Virus record (IMG/VR): IMGVR_UViG_3300042553_000425
Coordinates: 1 to 20,765 of that record
Origin: a virus
DNA: 20,765 nucleotides
Reading direction: 5' to 3' (one strand)
The position numbers and the translations under genes are program-made. The notes below the pieces were generated by a model, which was given only the letters and a program-made list of their open reading frames with translations, was not told where the DNA came from and searched no databases. Every line of letters begins with the position of its first letter. Within the stretch, counting starts at the first letter, position 1. Shown one piece after another: positions 4,883 to 19,662 of the stretch.

Positions 4883-5487
4883 CAGAACGGGCGTTCCTCG
4901 CCCTGCTCGCCTTCAGCCTCAGCTTCAGGGTCGACCTCGAAGCCGAACTCGGTAGCGGTCTCGCGGCCACCAACGCCAGCCTCGTACACCTGGTAAGCGT
5001 CCAGGGCCAGCGTGAGACCAGCACCAACCGACGCCACATAGAACGGGCGGGCAGTGATGGCCAGGGCCAGCTTGGCGTTGTGGTTGACCTGCCCAGTGTA
5101 GGGCTCGCCCTTCGGGGTGAACCCGCGGGGCTTAAACGACCAGTCGGTGCCGTCGTCACGGGTGCCGCCAGCCGTGGCCTTCGCACGGAGAGCGAACAGG
5201 CCCGTCTCGTTACCTTCCTTGTCGGTCAGCGGACGGATCGGGGGATCGCACCGCTTGATCTTGGGCTTCTTCTCGAGCATCGCCATCTCGGCAATCGCCT
5301 CCTCGTACAGCTCATTGACGCGGTCGATGAACGGAGCGTGCTTCTCATTGCTGGGATCCAGAACGATCTGGACCTCGTAGCTGCCCTTGGTTCCCGGCTT
5401 GGCGAACTTGGTGGTTGGGATGGTCAGCTTGGGCCAAAGGGCGACACAGACAGGGGTAACCAGATTGGTCTTCTTGGTGGACTTCAT
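4882..5487 (-). CDS. Single-stranded DNA-binding protein, T7 gp2.5-like
   Basis: A 201-residue protein with the features of phage single-strand binding proteins of the gp2.5/DUF2815 type: a beta-rich OB-fold-like body and a strongly acidic C-terminal tail (about residues 184-200) ending in Phe. In T7 that tail docks onto the polymerase and helicase. The stretch near 155-178 (ITARPFYVASVGAGLTLALD) resembles this family in marine podophages. It starts with ATG overlapping the RNA polymerase stop as ATGA, and its own stop overlaps the next ATG. It should coat and organise single strands at the fork with the neighbouring polymerase and helicase. A promoter-like motif lies about 190 bp upstream, inside the RNA polymerase gene. 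Confidence 0.85.
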   Translation of the reverse strand: MKSTKKTNLVTPVCVALWPKLTIPTTKFAKPGTKGSYEVQIVLDPSNEKHAPFIDRVNELYEEAIAEMAMLEKKPKIKRCDPPIRPLTDKEGNETGLFALRAKATAGGTRDDGTDWSFKPRGFTPKGEPYTGQVNHNAKLALAITARPFYVASVGAGLTLALDAYQVYEAGVGGRETATEFGFEVDPEAEAEGEQGEERPF

Positions 5488-7925
5488 GAGAAGAAGTATT
5501 CGCTTTGTTGGAGTGTGTTGATGTCGAAGGTTCCCTGCTCAGGCGGCGGGGGCAGCTTCGACGGATCTTTGAGTAGGTGCTGTGCTTCCTGATACAGGTC
5601 GTCCAACAGGTTGCCCTGGAAGATCTCCATCGCAGCTCGACGCACAGCAGCACCGAGCTTGTCTACGTTGTTTGCGAGTGTACCAAAGCTGTCGTGGACG
5701 GCAGTCACTTGGTAAATGCCCTCCGCGGCCAGCAGGTTCATCGTCCGCATCATGATCGAAGCGTCCACCGAGTGGACAAAGTTGGGGCTGGCAGCCGACT
5801 TCTGACGGCGCCTGGACAGCTTGTCCGTCGGGACCTTGGTTCGGAAGATCAAGAACTTCTGGCCCACGTGGGTTCGCACGAAGGCCGACCTCATGTCCTT
5901 GTAGGCGTGCTCGATGCGCATCCCACTGGGGGCCGTCCAGCCAAAGGACATACCCTCAGCGTTGTAGGCGTCGGCCACAGTCTGGATCCACGACATGGCC
6001 TTGCGGGCACCCACCAAGCGGGAGTCCACGGCCTCGAACATCTTGTCCGTCAGGTAGGTCAAGTACCTGAACACCATCCCAGGGCTGGCAATCGGCTGCT
6101 TCTTCCGACCACTGATGCTGTCCATGTAGGCTGACCGCACGTACTCCAGGCAGCCGCGGTAGGTCGCCCCGTAGGGCAGGACCATCACGACGCGCTTGGT
6201 GTAGTCACGGGGGATGGCAGTGCCGAAGAACTCCAGCCAGGCCTTGGCCATGGGGTTCTCGTAGTCGTCCAGCAGACGCTGCCAAGTGTCCTTGCCAACC
6301 AGGGTGTAGATGTCCTGGGGGTTCCCAGTTCCACAGTTGGTAGCACCCGCTCCCAAGGGGTCCCTGAGCATGAGGGAGAAGAGCTGCAGCCCATTGTTCG
6401 AGCCGTCGATGTTCACAGGGAGGCGCGACAGGAAGGTCGTAGGGTTGGCCTTCCAGGCCACGTACTCCAAGCACGCTGCCAGGAACTGCCAGGGCTTGCT
6501 CGCCTCCATCCACTTGTGGTGCTCGACCGCATTGGCGGCCGTGGCAAGGATCAGCTCCTCATTGTCCACGGACCACTTCTCGCGCTCGGCCCAGGTGGCC
6601 TTGTCGAAGCCCCAGGTGTTGGCCAGGTGGCGACGCAGCCAGCGGACACCCGTCGCAGTGAGGACTTCGCCGTCACGGAACATCAGGAGACCGCGGGCGA
6701 AGTCGGGCCCCTGGGGCTGGAGGAAGCTCACGACGGGGTAGGCCCGTCCACGGAAGTCGACCTGATGAGGGTAGAAGAACGGGTCGATGCCCACCTCCTT
6801 GCACACAGTGAAGGTGCGGGAGATCAGGATGCGCTGAGCACGACACTCCTCCTCACGGCTCAGGGTCTGAGCGCAGGTGCGGGCCCAGACCTTGTACTCC
6901 TCGCTCTCCCGGTCCTTGGGCCGAGGGGGAATGTCGAAGTCCGTCCGCTTGGGCATGGCCGGGGCGTCAAGGTCGCGCTCCCACAGGACCAGCGCAATGT
7001 CGTACACGGGGCGGTTGACCAGGTAGGGTACCCGCTGGAGGTGGCTGATTGCCGAGTACACCTCAGGGCAGGAGTCCTTCGTGTTCCCCGTGTCCTCGTC
7101 GTAGTCCTTGAACAGGCACAGGCGGGGCAGCTCGTCGGTCCAGTAGCCCCCATCCCACGGGCTGGCCCAGTCCTTGGGGGGCTGGGGAATTGGCAGCCAG
7201 AACGGTGCCATGGCGGCCACGTTCTCATGCGCCTTCTTCAACCAATCGACCGTTTCGGGCAGCGGGATGATCTTCTTCCGACGGTTCTTAAAGCCCTTCG
7301 CTTTGACCAGGTGGTCAGGCTTGACCTCGAAGGTGATGCACCCGCCGACCTCCATCATGATCTGGACCATGAAGGCCCCGACCTCAGCTCGTCCACGGTG
7401 TGACCACAGGGACACGCCAGCGTGGGTTGCCGCCTTGGCCAGGGTCTTTTCGATCACTGGAATGCGCGAGCGAGTACGACGACGTAGGACGGTCTTGTCG
7501 TACTGGTCCCAGTGGCCCCGGCTCAGCTTCTTCATCGCACGCAGGCAGTGCTCGTGGTGGAGGGCGTTGCCGACAGCACCGACAGTCCGCTGCCAGTCCC
7601 CGTCACGGGCCAGGTTGTCCAGCACGTGCTTGGCCGTGATCACGCAGCACACCGCGGGAACCAGCTCAGACAGGTAGCGGACGGCCCCGCAGTATTTGCC
7701 TGCCTTGCCGTCCTTGTACTCCTCGATCAGTTCCTTGAGGCGCACTTCCATTCGCCGCGTGGCCTCAGCCATGAGCAGCCGCTCAGGGCCGAAGTACGTG
7801 GGCAGGGACGTGCCCGATGCTCCCTTGAGTCCATAGGCAGCCGCTTGGTTGGCGTGGTAGCGGGACAGGCCGAGGGCCCGTGACCGCTTTTCCCGTGCTC
7901 GAGTGGACTTGGAGAGATCGCTCAT
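5484..7925 (-). CDS. Single-subunit DNA-directed RNA polymerase, T7-like
   Basis: An 813-residue phage RNA polymerase (T7: 883 aa). Visible landmarks are DFRGRAY at 390-396, the first catalytic Asp D507 in DGSNNG, K577 and Y585 in KRVVMVLPYG with the same 8-residue spacing as T7 K631/Y639, the ASPNFVHSVDAS stretch at 712-723, and the second catalytic Asp D745 in HDSFGT. The promoter-specificity loop should lie near 668-692. The C-terminus ends FFS rather than the FAFA of T7. It would transcribe middle and late phage genes from phage-specific promoters; GTACACTC(G/A)CA motifs in this window are candidates. It is coupled by ATGA overlaps to the integrase upstream and to the single-strand binding protein gene downstream. 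Confidence 0.97.
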   Translation of the reverse strand: MSDLSKSTRAREKRSRALGLSRYHANQAAAYGLKGASGTSLPTYFGPERLLMAEATRRMEVRLKELIEEYKDGKAGKYCGAVRYLSELVPAVCCVITAKHVLDNLARDGDWQRTVGAVGNALHHEHCLRAMKKLSRGHWDQYDKTVLRRRTRSRIPVIEKTLAKAATHAGVSLWSHRGRAEVGAFMVQIMMEVGGCITFEVKPDHLVKAKGFKNRRKKIIPLPETVDWLKKAHENVAAMAPFWLPIPQPPKDWASPWDGGYWTDELPRLCLFKDYDEDTGNTKDSCPEVYSAISHLQRVPYLVNRPVYDIALVLWERDLDAPAMPKRTDFDIPPRPKDRESEEYKVWARTCAQTLSREEECRAQRILISRTFTVCKEVGIDPFFYPHQVDFRGRAYPVVSFLQPQGPDFARGLLMFRDGEVLTATGVRWLRRHLANTWGFDKATWAEREKWSVDNEELILATAANAVEHHKWMEASKPWQFLAACLEYVAWKANPTTFLSRLPVNIDGSNNGLQLFSLMLRDPLGAGATNCGTGNPQDIYTLVGKDTWQRLLDDYENPMAKAWLEFFGTAIPRDYTKRVVMVLPYGATYRGCLEYVRSAYMDSISGRKKQPIASPGMVFRYLTYLTDKMFEAVDSRLVGARKAMSWIQTVADAYNAEGMSFGWTAPSGMRIEHAYKDMRSAFVRTHVGQKFLIFRTKVPTDKLSRRRQKSAASPNFVHSVDASIMMRTMNLLAAEGIYQVTAVHDSFGTLANNVDKLGAAVRRAAMEIFQGNLLDDLYQEAQHLLKDPSKLPPPPEQGTFDINTLQQSEYFFS
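5672..5684 (-). promoter_or_regulatory. Promoter-like motif inside the RNA polymerase gene
   Basis: The minus strand reads GGTACACTCGCAA, matching the shared core at 19651 and 14151. It encodes part of the conserved SFGTLA segment of the RNA polymerase, so coding constraint alone could explain the match. If used, it would drive the single-strand binding protein and replication genes from about 190 bp upstream. Confidence 0.35.
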
Positions 7926-8878
7926 AGGTTCTGGACTGCCGAGGTCAGATCGCTGAGGTCAGTGTGGACATACCGCTGGGTGGTCGTGATGGACGAGTGC
8001 CCCAGAAGAGCTTGGACCAGCACGATGTTAACACGAGCCTGGATCAGGCGGGTGGCATACGTGTGTCGAAGCGTGTGGATGCAGTAGCCCTTGCCCAATC
8101 CAATTGCAGCCAGGGCCGCGTTGAACTTGCGACGTAGGTAGCTGATCGACGGAAGGCCCTTCCCGCTGGTGATCAGGGTGGCGATCACGCTGCAGTCCGT
8201 CGCCAGATGCTGGCGAGGGATGGGGACGGTGCGGGGTTTGGAGGTCTTGGTTCCACGGACAACCACACAGTCGTAGCCGAAGTCGTCAGGCTGGAGAGCG
8301 TACAGCTCACCCAAACGCAGGCCCGTGTACAGCAGGAATCGAACGATGTTGCAGCAGACATCAGGGCTGAGCTGCTGGATTAGCGCCTGCTCCTGTGCCT
8401 TCGAGAACACGTAGGACCGGGGCTCAGGCTCACGGTCCTTCTCGATCTTGGGAATGCGGCTCAGCCATCCCCGGCCATGAGCATAGGTCAGGAGGCGACT
8501 CAAGGCAGACAGGTAGCGGTTGATCGTGGCGGGGGAGGACCCCATCGCCTTGATCCCAGCGCGGACGCGGTCGACGTGGACGGCCCCGATGGACTCGACC
8601 AGGGTCTTGGGACCAACTAGGTCGACCACCTTGCGGCCGCGGGAATACAGCCCTTCCCAATCCTTGGCTGAATCCCAGACGTCACGGGCACAGTCCTTGA
8701 GCAGGTCCTCCATGGTGGGCTGCAGCGTCGCAGCTTCCAGGGGCATCCCACAAGCGAGGGCTTCCTTGGCCTCAGCTTTCCAGGCCTTCGCCTCCTGGCG
8801 GGAATCAAAGGTGCGCTTCACACGCTTGCCTTCGTGTTGAACGATCACGGCCACACGGCCGTTGCGGTCAGCCTTCAT
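7922..8878 (-). CDS. int: Tyrosine recombinase / phage integrase
   Basis: A 318-residue integrase. The N-terminal 45 residues resemble an arm-type DNA-binding domain, followed by a SAM-like core-binding domain (about 52-145). The catalytic domain carries all expected residues: R188 (TGLRLGE), K211 (TKTSKPR), H268 and R271 (HTLRH), H294 (LLGHSS) and nucleophile Y303 (QRYVH). It would join the phage attachment site to a bacterial one and, with an excisionase, reverse this. It lies directly upstream of the RNA polymerase gene and overlaps it as ATGA, the order known from some marine T7-like phages. No attachment site or excisionase gene could be recognised here. Its start overlaps the end of a tiny membrane-protein gene by 11 bp. 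Confidence 0.93.
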   Translation of the reverse strand: MKADRNGRVAVIVQHEGKRVKRTFDSRQEAKAWKAEAKEALACGMPLEAATLQPTMEDLLKDCARDVWDSAKDWEGLYSRGRKVVDLVGPKTLVESIGAVHVDRVRAGIKAMGSSPATINRYLSALSRLLTYAHGRGWLSRIPKIEKDREPEPRSYVFSKAQEQALIQQLSPDVCCNIVRFLLYTGLRLGELYALQPDDFGYDCVVVRGTKTSKPRTVPIPRQHLATDCSVIATLITSGKGLPSISYLRRKFNAALAAIGLGKGYCIHTLRHTYATRLIQARVNIVLVQALLGHSSITTTQRYVHTDLSDLTSAVQNL

Positions 8879-8997: not shown

Positions 8998-9627
8998 TCA
9001 TCGTGCGTCTCCAGTCACCCGAGCCTCGCCAGACACCCTAGCGAAGCCAGACACCCGAGCGATGTCGCACACCCGAGCCTCGCCAAACACCCAAACGTTG
9101 TCGAACACCCGAGCGTTGCCGTACACCTGAGCTTTGCCGGACACCCAAGCGTTGCCACACACCCGAGCGTAGCCAAACACCGAAGCGTTGTCGGACACCC
9201 GAGCGTTGTCGGACACCTGAGTGTCGCCGTACACCCGAGCGTCACCAGACACCCAAGCATCGCCGGACACCCAAGCGTTGTCGAACACCCGAGCGTTGCC
9301 GAACGCTCGGGCGTCACCGTACACCTGAGCGTTGTCGCACACCTCAGCGTTATCGAACACCTCAGCGTTGTCGTACACCCGAGCCTTGCCGCACACGTGA
9401 GCGTTGCCGTACATCTCAACGTCGCCAAGCACCTCAGCGTTGCCGTACACCCGAGCGTTGCCGGACACCCAAGCGTTGTCAAACACCCCAGCTTTGCCAA
9501 ACACCCGAGCATCCGGGCCGACATATGCAGTGTCAGATACGGTTGCCGTCTCCGCCACCCAGCCACCGCCGTTGGCGTGTCGATGAGCAGCGACGGGGCC
9601 GTTGCCGTCGCAAAAGTCAAAGGTCAT
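8998..9627 (-). CDS. Left-handed beta-helix (hexapeptide-repeat) protein, short paralogue
   Basis: A 209-residue protein. After a short N-terminal segment (GPVAAHRHANGGGWVAETA), nearly all of it is hexapeptide repeats of the form A-(R/E/Q)-V-x-(G/D)-(N/D), the pattern of a left-handed parallel beta-helix. The DNA repeats every 18 bp. It has no acyltransferase or carbonic anhydrase active-site loop or C-terminal catalytic domain, so a scaffold, binding or mimicry role is likelier than an enzyme. The start at 9627 is preferred over the frame's first ATG because it matches the paralogue's N-terminus, has a GGGAGAA ribosome site, and overlaps the upstream stop as ATGA. The paralogue at 11163-11906 carries an extra C-terminal domain missing here; this copy stops inside the repeats. 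Confidence 0.8.
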   Translation of the reverse strand: MTFDFCDGNGPVAAHRHANGGGWVAETATVSDTAYVGPDARVFGKAGVFDNAWVSGNARVYGNAEVLGDVEMYGNAHVCGKARVYDNAEVFDNAEVCDNAQVYGDARAFGNARVFDNAWVSGDAWVSGDARVYGDTQVSDNARVSDNASVFGYARVCGNAWVSGKAQVYGNARVFDNVWVFGEARVCDIARVSGFARVSGEARVTGDAR

Positions 9628-9734
9628 TGGTTGCTGTTCTCCCACAGATTTACCACGAGGTTGAGCAAGATCAACCCACACACGACTCCAAAGGCGATCA
9701 CCACGATCGACACAACAAACTGCTCAAAGCTCAT
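9624..9734 (-). CDS. Small single-pass membrane protein (36 aa)
   Basis: The frame from ATG 9734 encodes 36 residues with one long hydrophobic stretch (about 6-30, FVVSIVVIAFGVVCGLILLNLVV) and a polar NLWENSNQ tail. The start has a good ribosome site (GGAGGG, 7 nt upstream). It overlaps the previous stop as ATGA and its own stop overlaps the beta-helix start as ATGA. It resembles the 32-aa membrane protein at 8868-8966 in size and placement, since each follows a larger early gene. Function is unknown. Confidence 0.65.
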   Translation of the reverse strand: MSFEQFVVSIVVIAFGVVCGLILLNLVVNLWENSNQ

Positions 9735-11113: not shown

Positions 11114-11166
11114 CACGCGCCTCCATTCGGCGGTTGCGGGAGCGGCATCCAGTAGAGCTTGGTCAC
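11113..11166 (-). CDS. Mini-ORF (17 aa) bridging two genes
   Basis: A GTG-initiated frame of 17 codons (V/M-TKLYWMPLPQPPNGGA) starts in a GTGA overlap with the beta-helix gene's stop and ends in a TGATG overlap with the next start. It carries that gene's GGAGG ribosome site near its end. Its start context (GGTGACACCGTGA) matches the start of the long beta-helix gene at 11906. It may keep translation coupled rather than make a functional peptide. Confidence 0.4.
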   Translation of the reverse strand: MTKLYWMPLPQPPNGGA

Positions 11167-11906
11167 GGTGTCACCCCCAGCCCCTTTCGCCACTGCCCCA
11201 CCAGCGTCACGATCCCCGCGATCTCAGCATGGAGATCCTTGTGGCCGTGCTTACTGCAAAGTTCAGCAATCAGCTTAGGGGTCCACGCATCGAACGGATG
11301 CCACTCACAGCCATAGCCTAGGTTGCCATTGTAAGCCCACCAAGTGTATGTGGCTTGGCCGGACAGTAGAGGCAGCTTTTGCGACACGTGATCGGTGCCA
11401 AACACCCGAGCGGTGCCAGACACCTGAGCGGTGCCAGACACCCGAGCGTCGCCAAACACCCAGGCGTCGCCAAACACCCAGGCGCTGTCGAACACCCGAG
11501 CGGTGCCAGACACGCGAGCGTTGCCGTACACCTGAGCGTAGCCGTGCGCCCGAGCGTTGTCGAACACCTGAGCGTTGCCGTACACCTGAGTGTTGCTGTA
11601 CACTCGGGCGTCGCCGTACACCTGAGCGTTGCCGAACACCTGAGCATTGCCAAACACCCGAGCGTTGTCGGACACCCAAGCGTCGCCAAACACCGCAGCG
11701 TTGCCGAACACCTGAGCGTCGCCAAACACCCGAGCGTTGTCGAGCACCCGAGCGTTGTCGAACACCTGAGCGGTGCCGAACACCTGAGCGTTTGCACCGA
11801 CATACACCGTAGGTTCCACAGACGCTGTGCTGGCCACCCAGCCGCCGCCATTAGGGTGTTGGTGGGCAGGGACAGGCCCATAGGCGAAATCGTAGGTGGT
11901 GCTCAC
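11163..11906 (-). CDS. Left-handed beta-helix (hexapeptide-repeat) protein with C-terminal domain
   Basis: A 247-residue paralogue of the protein at 8998-9627. The N-terminus (YDFAYGPVPAHQHPNGGGWV) is shared, followed by about 25 hexapeptide units of the type A-Q-V-F-G-N that should form a left-handed beta-helix. A distinct C-terminal domain of about 65 residues follows (from SQKLPLLSGQ, with an aromatic YTWWAYNGNLGYGCEWHPFDAW stretch near its start). The start is GTG at 11906, with GGAGGTG 5-10 nt upstream and a GTGA overlap with the previous stop; longer ATG/GTG starts would run through that gene. The repeats are Asp/Asn-rich and lack enzyme loops. Possible roles are a decoy, a DNA mimic like the pentapeptide-repeat gyrase inhibitors, or a scaffold; none is shown by sequence. 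Confidence 0.8.
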   Translation of the reverse strand: MSTTYDFAYGPVPAHQHPNGGGWVASTASVEPTVYVGANAQVFGTAQVFDNARVLDNARVFGDAQVFGNAAVFGDAWVSDNARVFGNAQVFGNAQVYGDARVYSNTQVYGNAQVFDNARAHGYAQVYGNARVSGTARVFDSAWVFGDAWVFGDARVSGTAQVSGTARVFGTDHVSQKLPLLSGQATYTWWAYNGNLGYGCEWHPFDAWTPKLIAELCSKHGHKDLHAEIAGIVTLVGQWRKGLGVTP

Positions 11907-12148
11907 GGTGTCACCTCCAGCGGACGCCCGCGGGCGCTGTACTCCAGCTCGAGCTGGGCGATCAGGTCGTACAGCGCGCACACCTTAGGACGAAGCGGAT
12001 CGTCCACAGGCGTGCAGCTCACGGCTTCACTGACCCTGAGACCAGCGTGATTCAAGGCCCGCTGAGCTGCCTTGTAGAGCAGTGCTTTGCACCACTCCAT
12101 GCGGGCTTGGATCTCAGCCACGCTCTGCTCGCCAGTGTAGGTTTCCAT
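11903..12148 (-). CDS. Hypothetical protein (81 aa)
   Basis: An 81-residue, largely helical protein with two Cys residues near 20 and 45. No family recognised. A GTG lies directly before the ATG at 12148; the ATG is chosen because it overlaps the preceding stop (TGATG) and has GGATGG 6 nt upstream. It ends EVTP in a GTGA overlap with the beta-helix gene; that gene also ends VTP in the same nucleotide context. Confidence 0.65.
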   Translation of the reverse strand: METYTGEQSVAEIQARMEWCKALLYKAAQRALNHAGLRVSEAVSCTPVDDPLRPKVCALYDLIAQLELEYSARGRPLEVTP

Positions 12149-12947: not shown

Positions 12948-12964
12948 ATTGGACTCGATGAAGA

Positions 12965-13012
12965 GGCCAGCCCTGCCCCAAGAGGCTTCACATTCTTGAG
13001 ACAGGACTGACC
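12965..13012 (-). terminator. Hairpin copy 1, upstream of the small-gene set
   Basis: The same 19-bp stem and 10-nt loop as at 13048-13095. The two stem substitutions turn U-A into U-G and C-G into U-G, so pairing is kept only in the RNA sense to the genes. It ends about 35 nt before the ATG at 12931. Confidence 0.6.
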
Positions 13013-13047
13013 GGGGACTTCTCACATCCCGAACTCACTCAGGAAGA

Positions 13048-13095
13048 GGCCAGTCCTGCCCCAAGAGGCTTCTCATTCTTGGGACAGGACTGACC
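13048..13095 (-). terminator. Hairpin downstream of DUF932 (copy 2), attenuator or processing site
   Basis: The minus-strand RNA forms a 19-bp stem (arms 13095-13077 and 13066-13048, including U-G wobbles) with a 10-nt loop. It begins about 10 nt after the DUF932 stop. There is no long U-tract after it, so it may be an RNase III-type processing site or partial terminator rather than a classic intrinsic terminator. Confidence 0.6.
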
Positions 13096-13104
13096 GGGGA
13101 CTTC

Positions 13105-14064
13105 TCACATCCCGAACTCACTCAGGAGGAAGCTGCGAACCTTCACCTTGAGGTCGGCACCCGACCCCAGAAGATTGCTCGCCGCCCGCTCCTGAACCTT
13201 GCCCCGCTTGTGATCCACCCAAGCGGTCACTGCGTTGTACGCTTCCCAGAGGGACCCGTCAGCCTCATTGCCGAGGCGCGTGATCGGAGAGCGACGCAGG
13301 GCCGCCCACTCGCTCAAGATCGTGACCGCCTTGGCCTTTTGAGCATCCGTCTCAGGCGTGCCGTACAGGTGCTTATAGATGCGACCGAAGACCTCGTCGC
13401 GGGCTTGGATCTCGGCCATCAGGCGTGCCTGCCGCATATCCATCTCAGCGGCGTCGCAGGCCATCAGGATGCGACTCATGAGCAGGGGCACGTCGACGAT
13501 CAGGCCAGAGGTGTGGCGGCGGCTCGTCATGGTGCGGTTCGTGATGCCCTCCATCAGGGCGATGCGCTCGGTGTTGGCGCACACGACCCGCTCATTAGCG
13601 GCCCAGACGCGCACCGACTGCTTACCATCGTGGCCGTTGGTGACGATGCCGTACTGGCGAACGATGTCGCCCTTGGCCACCTCGCCCTCACCGAGAGCGA
13701 CGCAGACGACCACGGTGCGGCCGCCACGGAGAGAGCCCGCGCTGTGCAGGTAGACGCTGCTGCGACCGACTGCAGACGCAGCCTGCCGCACGTCCTCGAG
13801 CATCGCGTGATTCTGGTACGGGGTGTAATCCGCACCGACCACGGCCAGAGGCTCAGCGATGCCCTCGCGGACCACGGCGCGGTAGCCTTCGACAGGGACA
13901 GCGGAGGAGGAGACTTGGATCGGCTCAAGGGAGACCGTCCAGTCAAGGCCAGCTTGGGCGATGGCCTCGTCGATTGTGAAGGAACGATCGAGGACGATGC
14001 CCAGACCGTGCCAAGCGGGCTTGTTGAAGAGGAACGTGTCCGTTGAAGTGATTTCGTGCGACAT
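13105..14064 (-). CDS. DUF932 / phage-plasmid-like protein (TIGR03299 type)
   Basis: A 319-residue protein with the hallmarks of the DUF932 family: an N-terminal MSHEITSTDTF...PAWHGLGIVLD, then VVREG/VGADYTPYQNHAMLEDV, a GGRTVVVCVALGE strand and a VVCANTERIAL motif. The family is widespread in phages and plasmids, especially of actinobacteria; its biochemical role is not established. The start at 14064 matches the family's usual MSHE and has AAGGA about 9 nt upstream. It is preceded by a promoter-like motif at 14140-14152 and followed by the hairpin repeat. Length is normal and nothing is missing. Confidence 0.85.
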   Translation of the reverse strand: MSHEITSTDTFLFNKPAWHGLGIVLDRSFTIDEAIAQAGLDWTVSLEPIQVSSSAVPVEGYRAVVREGIAEPLAVVGADYTPYQNHAMLEDVRQAASAVGRSSVYLHSAGSLRGGRTVVVCVALGEGEVAKGDIVRQYGIVTNGHDGKQSVRVWAANERVVCANTERIALMEGITNRTMTSRRHTSGLIVDVPLLMSRILMACDAAEMDMRQARLMAEIQARDEVFGRIYKHLYGTPETDAQKAKAVTILSEWAALRRSPITRLGNEADGSLWEAYNAVTAWVDHKRGKVQERAASNLLGSGADLKVKVRSFLLSEFGM

Positions 14065-14137: not shown

Positions 14138-14170
14138 CGGTGCGAGTGTACCTTAGGTCAGGCGGGTCAC
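14138..14170 (-). promoter_or_regulatory. Candidate phage RNA polymerase promoter upstream of DUF932
   Basis: The minus strand reads GGTACACTCGCACC (14152-14139) in a longer block that is nearly identical to the one at 14905-14930: both have CCTGACCTA before the core and ATCCAACGAT after it. It lies in the gap between the 98-aa gene and the DUF932 gene, 75-90 bp upstream of the DUF932 ATG, pointing at it. Confidence 0.55.
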
Positions 14171-15487: not shown

Positions 15488-16252
15488 TCAGGGGACCACG
15501 TTGCCCGCGGCCGCCGTGAATTCGGCCTCGCGGACAAACCCACGATGCTGAGCGGACTTGGCAATGCCCTTTTGGCGAAGCGCCACAACTACGCCCTTAG
15601 GCTGCACGAAAGTAGCGTCATGCTGGTCGCCGTCGACGATGTACACGCCGTTCCAAGTGAGTCCGCCGATGTCGGCATTTCGAGGGAGGTTGAAGGGTAC
15701 TGCGACCCGGATGCCCTTGCCGACAAGCTCTTGAATTCGCTCGATTGAATCACGTTCGGACGCACTATATGTCCGGTCGACGCCGTCATCCGGCCATTGT
15801 TCCGGGGGCTTCTTCGAGTATTCGTACTGGATTAGACGGACCCCCGAAGAGCGGGCCAGACCGTCGATCCATTGCCGCAATTCGATCGGCCATTCGATGT
15901 CGCTGGTGCCGTTCAGACGCAGGCTAACCGTGGGCGGGTTGGCCGGATCGCGACCCTTGCGCAACTTGCGGAAAGTTGCGACAAGCTCTTGCCCGAGCTG
16001 TTCGCGGAAGCGCACAGGATCGGTTTGCCAGAGGTCGAGCCTACGCTTCTGCGCTTGGCTAACGCTATCCATGCGGAAGCGGAAGCTCCCGAGAGCCTTG
16101 CTCCCGAAACATGCCGCCTTGCAACCCGGGGTTGCGTTTGGGCAGACATTCTTGCTGCCGGGCGGCAGGTAGAGGATAAGGGCGGCATCGACGATGCCAG
16201 CGGCGACAGTCTTGGCCGTCTTGCCAGACACGGTGAGGAGCTTAGTTGCCAC
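15488..16252 (-). CDS. GP88-family protein (mycobacteriophage gene product 88-like)
   Basis: A 254-residue protein of the GP88 family. It shows KLLTVSGKTAKT at the N-terminus, a Cys cluster CPNATPGCKAACFG near 35-48, the signature RLNGTSDIEW, YEYSKKP, a Ser-rich DRTYSASER segment, and NGVYIVDGDQHDATF then KGVVVALRQKGIA at the C-terminus. The family is common in actinobacteriophages and is often described only by name; function is not established. The GTG at 16252 is chosen because GGAG lies 7-8 nt upstream and the conserved region starts there. A longer frame begins at 16282 or 16459 but would overlap two upstream genes. It overlaps the previous gene by 11 bp. Confidence 0.85.
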   Translation of the reverse strand: MATKLLTVSGKTAKTVAAGIVDAALILYLPPGSKNVCPNATPGCKAACFGSKALGSFRFRMDSVSQAQKRRLDLWQTDPVRFREQLGQELVATFRKLRKGRDPANPPTVSLRLNGTSDIEWPIELRQWIDGLARSSGVRLIQYEYSKKPPEQWPDDGVDRTYSASERDSIERIQELVGKGIRVAVPFNLPRNADIGGLTWNGVYIVDGDQHDATFVQPKGVVVALRQKGIAKSAQHRGFVREAEFTAAAGNVVP

Positions 16253-16466
16253 TGCTCTGCTCCTGCCGCAGGTAGGCTTCATAATCGAGACGCGTCCATC
16301 GATTGATGTCGTCAATCCATGCCAAAGCGCGATTAGTTGCGTGCACCTCCGTCTCGCCGTGGAACATGACCTGCTCCCATCGGTTCGCGAGCTGCACGCC
16401 CCCATCGGGTGTGATGACGATGCAGACCCTGCGCACGGCGACAAGCCACATTCGCTCATTCATCAT
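16242..16466 (-). CDS. Hypothetical protein (74 aa)
   Basis: A 74-residue protein with two hydrophobic strands (MWLVAVRRVCIVI) and an aromatic helical C-terminus (NRALAWIDDINRWTRLDYEAYLRQEQ), possibly a small alpha/beta fold. Two ATGs stand in tandem at 16466 and 16463, with GGAG 9 nt before the first. The earlier start of the frame (16532) lies inside the 33-aa gene and has no ribosome site. It overlaps the 33-aa gene by 11 bp and GP88 by 11 bp. No family recognised. Confidence 0.55.
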   Translation of the reverse strand: MMNERMWLVAVRRVCIVITPDGGVQLANRWEQVMFHGETEVHATNRALAWIDDINRWTRLDYEAYLRQEQSSGN

Positions 16467-16557
16467 TGAAGCACACTCCGTGGCGATCGAGATAATCTTG
16501 AACGATCGCGGCATCATTTTGATCATCGTCACCGATGATCAGGTCAGTAGGATTCAT
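16456..16557 (-). CDS. Small acidic protein (33 aa), first gene after the hammerhead ribozyme
   Basis: An ATG at 16557 opens a 33-codon frame encoding an Asp-rich peptide (MNPTDLIIGDDDQNDAAIVQ...). GAGAG lies about 9 nt upstream. The start is one base after a 9-nt segment that pairs with sequence upstream of the ribozyme, and 72 nt after the predicted cleavage site. The stop overlaps the next gene, fitting the operon. Coding support is moderate; no homologue recognised. Confidence 0.5.
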   Translation of the reverse strand: MNPTDLIIGDDDQNDAAIVQDYLDRHGVCFNDE

Positions 16558-16558
16558 G

Positions 16559-16673
16559 GTCTAAGCTCTCGTTTGATTGTGAGAAGTTTCGCCCATACCG
16601 TGGGCTCATCAGACCGGACAGTATCCGGTGACCTAGGCCACGTGTACTAACCTACACGTAACCTAGCTTAGAC
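16559..16673 (-). promoter_or_regulatory. Long-range stem bracketing the ribozyme and next to the start codon
   Basis: On the minus strand GTCTAAGCT (16673-16665) is fully complementary to AGCTTAGAC (16567-16559), which ends one base before the ATG at 16557 and abuts the GAGAG ribosome-site candidate. Between them lie a 34-bp imperfect hairpin (16633-16666: inner arms ACGTGTA/TACACGT, outer CTAGG/CCTAG) and the ribozyme. Self-cleavage would separate the two arms. The outer two bases of the hairpin compete with the long stem. Confidence 0.6.
16584..16634 (-). ncRNA. Hammerhead ribozyme, type III topology
   Basis: In minus-strand RNA, the GUC cleavage triplet is at 16632-16630 with cleavage predicted before A16629. 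Stem I is ACCGGA/UCCGGU (16629-16624 with 16618-16613) and its loop is UACUG. The core CUGAUGA is at 16612-16606. Stem II is GCCCA/UGGGC (16605-16601 with 16595-16591) and its loop is CGGUA. GAAA is at 16590-16587. Stem III is open: A16587-U16631, C-G, U-G and U-A are visible, only four pairs. Loops I and II are complementary over all five bases (one U-G), the tertiary contact expected for fast hammerheads. Every conserved core base is present. It lies in the 5' leader of the small-gene operon. Confidence 0.9.
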
Positions 16674-16896
16674 GTCGATTCTCGCGCGGGTTGGCTTGTT
16701 GCCTCTCGCCTTTTCCGCGCGTGCCCGCCTTGCTGCATCCTATTGCCCAGCGGGTTTTGAATTGGAAGACTCGATTCATCGGCAAAAACGCTGGCCCCAA
16801 GTGAAATTACTCAGAACTGCATTCTTGGCAGGCTCGATGCGGGTGGCGCCACCATGCGCCACCTATGATCCTGCGGGGTTGAAGAGCCGTCGATTA

Positions 16897-19650: not shown

Positions 19651-19662
19651 GTACACTCGCAC
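19651..19662 (+). promoter_or_regulatory. Candidate phage promoter of zinc-ribbon gene A
   Basis: GTACACTCGCAC starts 24 nt before the ATG at 19675. The identical 12-mer starts 24 nt before the ATG of gene B. It faces the gene, as the minus-strand copies do. The remaining space holds only a GGGG ribosome-site candidate, so the transcript would have a very short leader. Confidence 0.55.

Follow-up and report, generated by a model that had tools for sequence, protein, structure and literature searches.

A putative type III hammerhead ribozyme in the early-gene 5' leader of a T7-like phage

A complete type III hammerhead ribozyme was found on the minus strand of the window (the whole 20,765-base stretch of DNA analysed here), which is a fragment of a T7-like phage with a single-subunit RNA polymerase, integrase, primase-helicase, and DNA polymerase. 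It probably represents a working ribozyme that forms part of the leader preceding the early operon of this phage (probability of approximately 0.8), as judged from its sequence and position. The leader RNA would fold and cut itself between 16630 and 16629, a site predicted from the GUC adjoining stem I and the established chemistry of hammerheads, and the upstream leader would be discarded; the downstream early mRNA would then start with a 5'-hydroxyl group and two stable hairpins, formed by stems I and II, ahead of the ribosome-binding site. A predicted leader cut at this site, by a type III hammerhead that precedes early genes in a T7-like phage, had already been proposed in the sequence-only reading, and the present analysis agreed with it.

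Structure and assignment of the ribozyme

Positions 16637-16581 of the minus strand read CCUAGGUC/ACCGGAUACUGUCCGGUCUGAUGAGCCCACGGUAUGGGCGAAACUUCUC (Table 1). The core segments CUGANGA and GAAA and an NUH triplet were arranged in the type III order; loops closed stems I and II, and stem III was open, with 6, 5, and 4 pairs, respectively. The only pairs of stem III were U-A, G-C, G-U, and A-U. The earlier description of a complete hammerhead at these minus-strand coordinates, with its parts in the correct order and no core mismatch, was confirmed.

Table 1. Features of the ribozyme, its leader, and the surrounding genes, and the hammerheads of the nearest relative.
Feature	Positions	Strand	Basis or remark
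Type III hammerhead ribozyme	16581..16637	(-)	Whole RF00008 match, all 54 model positions
Predicted cleavage site, C17 (16630) / 16629	16629..16630	(-)	
GUC cleavage triplet	16632-16630	(-)	Sequence
Stem I, 6 pairs: ACCGGA 16629-16624 / UCCGGU 16618-16613, loop I UACUG	16613..16629	(-)	Sequence
Core CUGAUGA	16606..16612	(-)	Sequence
Stem II, 5 pairs: GCCCA 16605-16601 / UGGGC 16595-16591, loop II CGGUA	16591..16605	(-)	Sequence
Core GAAA	16587..16590	(-)	Sequence
Stem III	5' strand 16634-16631 with 3' strand 16587-16584	(-)	Sequence
14-bp hairpin CUAGGUUACGUGUA/UACACGUGGCCUAG	16633..16666	(-)	Directly 5' of GUC; occupies some of the 5' strand of stem III
Long-range complement, 5' arm, 9 nt, GUCUAAGCU	16665..16673	(-)	Fold
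Long-range complement, 3' arm, AGCUUAGAC	16559..16567	(-)	Fold; between SD-like GAGAG and AUG
SD-like GAGAG	16566..16570	(-)	Sequence
First downstream ORF, 33 aa, MNPTDLIIGDDDQND...	16456..16557	(-)	Head of early genes
GP88-family gene (PF17338)	15488..16276	(-)	Early block, after the 33-aa ORF
Phage integrase (PF00589)	7922..8878	(-)	Context; adjoins RNA polymerase
T7-like single-subunit RNA polymerase (PF00940)	5484..7925	(-)	Context
Three type II hammerheads of the nearest relative, G046 (L350 with L351)	near 9225, 7543, 6447	(-)	

The covariance-model search that had been suggested as a check gave a match to RF00008 (Hammerhead_3) over positions 1-54 of 54 with a score of 32.4 bits: E = 0.0016 against all 4227 Rfam families and 3.8e-7 with this model alone. 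This was the only convincing RNA in the all-Rfam scan of the window, though its score was lower than the gathering cut-off of 48.5 bits, which was also missed by every RF00008 match in the phage records searched, including HTVC031P, Eistla, and RHEph01. The cut-off is strict, and both the E value of 0.0016 and a second, independent covariance model support membership. The latter was constructed from 31 type III sequences of other viral contigs, with the window left out, and gave 40.8 bits for the window element (E = 4.7e-9 in 331 kb) and no match in T7, LUZ100, CRP-113, or CRP-143. Furthermore, the element was found with 16 pairs by a descriptor for types I, II, and III, and when the window was dinucleotide-shuffled 300 times, neither strand gave a descriptor match that good. 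The hammerhead of the window is not a product of chance.

Covariation of the stems was strong in the 31 other phage members: 98.3% of the cells were paired, and 182 were changed on both sides versus 52 in shuffled ones, while slid versions of the alignment all failed the test. Since these members were preselected by a stem filter, matches found by the core only provided a fairer test: stem I had at least 5 pairs in 108 of the 122 distinct matches listed (0.9 expected), and stem II had at least 4 pairs in 119 of these 122 (approximately 6 expected). On the other hand, the two close relatives of the window were approximately 99.4-99.9% identical to it, with an unchanged ribozyme score, and were rejected as a source of covariation. 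Covarying stems, as had been expected, were seen in the wider phage set; in both close relatives, the core and stems of the homologous leader were intact. In the search for further relatives, neither the GP88-family protein nor the second of the small ORFs nor the single RNA polymerase sequence brought up anything but near-identical phages or distant ones with no ribozyme.

Loops I and II were complementary over 5 of 5 positions, including one U-G pair. The tertiary contact proposed from this complementarity stood as five pairs on paper, but not as a general property of phage type III hammerheads: five contiguous loop pairs were present in 2% of the wider type III set and 1% of shuffles, and loop pairing was rejected as a general feature.

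The 5' leader and its fold

The ribozyme was located in an intergenic stretch of approximately 600 nt upstream of the early genes, and the start codon of the 33-aa ORF (16557-16555) was 30 nt past its core. No second hammerhead was detected in the window record by the Rfam scan or the descriptor. Among the promoter-like repeats of the window, the best was GGTACACTCRCACC, a candidate phage promoter: it was clear at 14151 and 14918 (-), its minus-strand copies being preceded by TGACCTA(A/G)G, and was also found at 19651 and 19938 (+), ahead of two similar Cys-rich ORFs. The copy upstream of the ribozyme (16949) was a poor match (19/32 positions), and no sigma-70 promoter was found on the coding strand near the leader. 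The ribozyme had been placed between a candidate promoter and the early genes; its position in the 5' leader held, but the promoter was weak. The RNA polymerase was at most 30.5% identical to those of named phages. Elsewhere in the window, two repeat-built proteins with an 18-nt unit (DNARVFGNA-like) were encoded at 8998-9681 and 11163-11981 (-), and an 83-bp tandem duplication (96% identical) was present at 12960-13125.

The leader (16556-16680) folded far better than shuffles (z = -4.67). Besides the stems of the ribozyme, it contained a 14-bp hairpin, across which the two relatives were nearly identical, and a long-range stem of 9 nt. The best computed fold (-51.2 kcal/mol) differed from that of the ribozyme and paired the core otherwise, which may be taken to indicate a relic: a ribozyme complete on paper, but slow or dead, with the 14-bp hairpin capturing a strand of stem III and leaving this stem with 4 pairs at most. 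In line with this, stem III of the window was weaker than in most phage members, and only one hammerhead was left in this phage. However, a stem III of 2-4 pairs was compatible with both the hairpin and the long-range stem; the energies of such folds were -46.9 to -47.7 kcal/mol, i.e., 3.5-4.3 kcal/mol above the best fold with no loop contact or tertiary energy credited. The core and stems were also unchanged in the window and its two relatives, and the five-pair contact between loops I and II was retained. We consider a relic to be unlikely.

The long-range stem and a small hairpin covered the SD-like GAGAG and the spacer to AUG, and the ribozyme may alternatively act as a translation switch, in which this stem hides the ribosome-binding site and cleavage frees it. 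By calculation, cleavage hardly freed this site: accessibility increased only from 0.07 to 0.11 for the SD and from 0.12 to 0.25 for the spacer. The mean gain among 112 type III leaders was 0.05, of which 0.02 persisted when the upstream piece was shuffled. A switch is, therefore, not favoured and appears quite improbable, and exposure of the ribosome-binding site by cleavage was rejected as a general mechanism because the gains were too small in the window and in the 112 leaders.

Hammerheads in other phages

A scan of IMG/VR viral contigs for the core pattern gave at least 120 matches. All three type III stems were present in 100 of the 122 distinct core matches listed, and at least 117 type III hammerheads were found by descriptor in the loci gathered. 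According to PMC3088659, none of the three types (I, II, and III) is more frequent than the others in bacteria, and the earlier statement that type III is less usual in bacteria and phages is not supported by these frequencies.

Sufficient flanking sequence was available for 106 type III members. In 54% of these, an ATG that was preceded by a Shine-Dalgarno site and opened an ORF of 40 codons or more lay within 40 nt, compared with 5.5% of random points in the same contigs; some ATG was present within 40 nt in 82% of the core matches listed. In loci L176-L333, which surround T7-like RNA polymerase genes and were oriented by these genes, the ratios of hammerheads on the coding and opposite strands were 30:1 for type I, 9:2 for type II, and 9:4 for type III, and most were directly upstream of start codons. 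Since strand and place recur, the hammerhead is a leader element rather than a random one. A type I match within a gene of L191 and its counterpart at 8286 in HTVC142P were weak and probably due to chance. It is very unlikely that the ribozyme acts on a small or circular RNA of the kind known from viroids, retrozymes, and satellite RNAs instead of on an mRNA leader: type III is the form known from viroids and one ribozyme suffices for rolling-circle RNA processing, but this one belongs to a DNA phage, lies on the coding strand 30 nt ahead of an ORF with no flanking second copy, and has a start-codon position that recurs in many phages.

Isolated pelagiphages contained several hammerheads each: four in HTVC031P, three in Eistla, HTVC168P, and HTVC109P, and two in HTVC019P and HTVC142P (one weak match left out for the latter). 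They were of mixed types, in the early region and on the coding strand, and most were directly before ribosome-binding sites; none is present in the annotation of these phages (L352-L357). The predicted cleavage sites of HTVC031P were 296, 1333, 2148, and 40986. In HTVC109P, the annotated starts of gp03 and gp05 (589 and 1121) were inside hammerheads, and the true starts are probably further downstream. Rhizobium phage RHEph01 had a good type III hammerhead and a weak one of type I, and T7, LUZ100, CRP-113, and CRP-143 had none. At the gathering score, Rfam gave no hammerhead in HTVC031P, Eistla, or RHEph01; standard annotation would miss such elements because the tested matches score below this cut-off. 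No report of hammerheads in T7-like phages was found in the open-licence literature.

Type III was first in 23 of 27 contigs with mixed types and, after removal of duplicates, in 19 of 23 versus 7.7 expected (permutation p <5e-6); when five pelagiphage-like contigs were left out, it was first in 14 of 18 (p = 0.0003). Because the contigs are partly related, both p values are too small. The exceptions were L062, L103, L116, and L142, and other contigs carried type III only. In the long arrays of L150 and L159, a single type III preceded eight type II and six type I hammerheads, respectively.

The only contig of intermediate similarity to the window was IMGVR_UViG_3300024346_000435 (G046), with an RNA polymerase identity of 47% and a shared order of RNA polymerase, integrase, DUF932, GP88, and virion gene. 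Its leader had a type II hammerhead and no type III. A second type II was located further down, both being well paired, and a third, with a one-base insertion, was before DUF932. The stem III loops of these three hammerheads contained GGACACTCTCC, which also occurred once alone and may be a phage promoter inside the ribozyme. The leader position thus appears to keep a hammerhead while its topology differs (type III in the window and type II in G046). Alignment of the two leaders gave no homology above shuffles, and the replacement of a type II by a type III is a guess. A tRNA-like gene with the anticodon TTA (L350, 3610-3684 (-)) adjoined the integrase of this relative and is possibly an ochre suppressor tRNA or an attachment-site copy.

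The early transcript of T7 is cut by RNase III of the host. In related T7-like phages, types I and II between the later early genes would cut the long transcript into gene-sized mRNAs, and such ribozymes would free the phage from dependence on host RNase III. The three forms differ in the fate of the ribozyme body after cleavage: that of type III remains on the downstream RNA and that of type I on the upstream RNA, while that of type II is divided. Since no upstream message needs protection in a leader, type III may be favoured there. We tentatively propose, at somewhat less than even odds, that T7-like phages of alphaproteobacteria replace RNase III with hammerheads: a type III in the leader, with its body kept at the 5' terminus of the first mRNA, and then types I or II between genes, with their bodies on the 3' end of the preceding mRNA. 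By the same tentative proposal, the window would show the leader element alone, and the leader of its nearest relative holds a type II. The single hammerhead in the window record, itself a fragment, counts against gene-by-gene cutting in this phage.

Comparison with known systems

The window element itself is of a known kind, and the wider pattern found here is that of hammerhead arrays in T7-like phages, which suggests that related ocean phages process their own messages by a series of ribozymes with no host enzyme. Hammerheads are now placed in T7-like phages including cultured pelagiphages and a Rhizobium phage, and ribozyme processing of phage mRNA becomes directly testable in cultured phages. 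If true, the rule that type III comes first would explain the three permuted forms, the form deciding which fragment keeps the structured end.

In the sections of Perreault et al. 2011 (PMC3088659) used here, clusters of prophage hammerheads of types I-III near genes are described, three tandem sets of which cleave in vitro. The window element resembles these phage and prophage hammerheads in its full core, three stems, and loop complementarity. It differs from the members described there, and from those of RF00008, in that stem III is accompanied by an additional 14-bp hairpin and a 9-nt long-range complement; from the clusters, in that the record has one hammerhead rather than several flanking genes; and from the hammerheads of the same source, in that the host phage is T7-like. 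The HHphage of haloviruses HF1 and HF2, a hammerhead located 13 nt ahead of the ORF that opens an early polycistronic unit according to the same sections of PMC3088659, is similarly a single hammerhead just before the first early ORF; however, its core is a variant and the virus is archaeal, whereas the core of the window element is canonical.

Pelagiphages HTVC031P, HTVC142P, HTVC168P, HTVC019P, HTVC109P, and Eistla are likewise T7-like and have a type III that precedes a ribosome-binding site and is located in the leader or first gap, but carry 2-4 hammerheads of several types, in contrast to one in the window, and their RNA polymerases are distant (approximately 30% identical). The proposed cutting of the early transcript near gene starts is similar to that at the RNase III sites of T7, which has no hammerhead: T7 uses a host protein enzyme and simple hairpins, whereas the window phage would use a self-cutting RNA.
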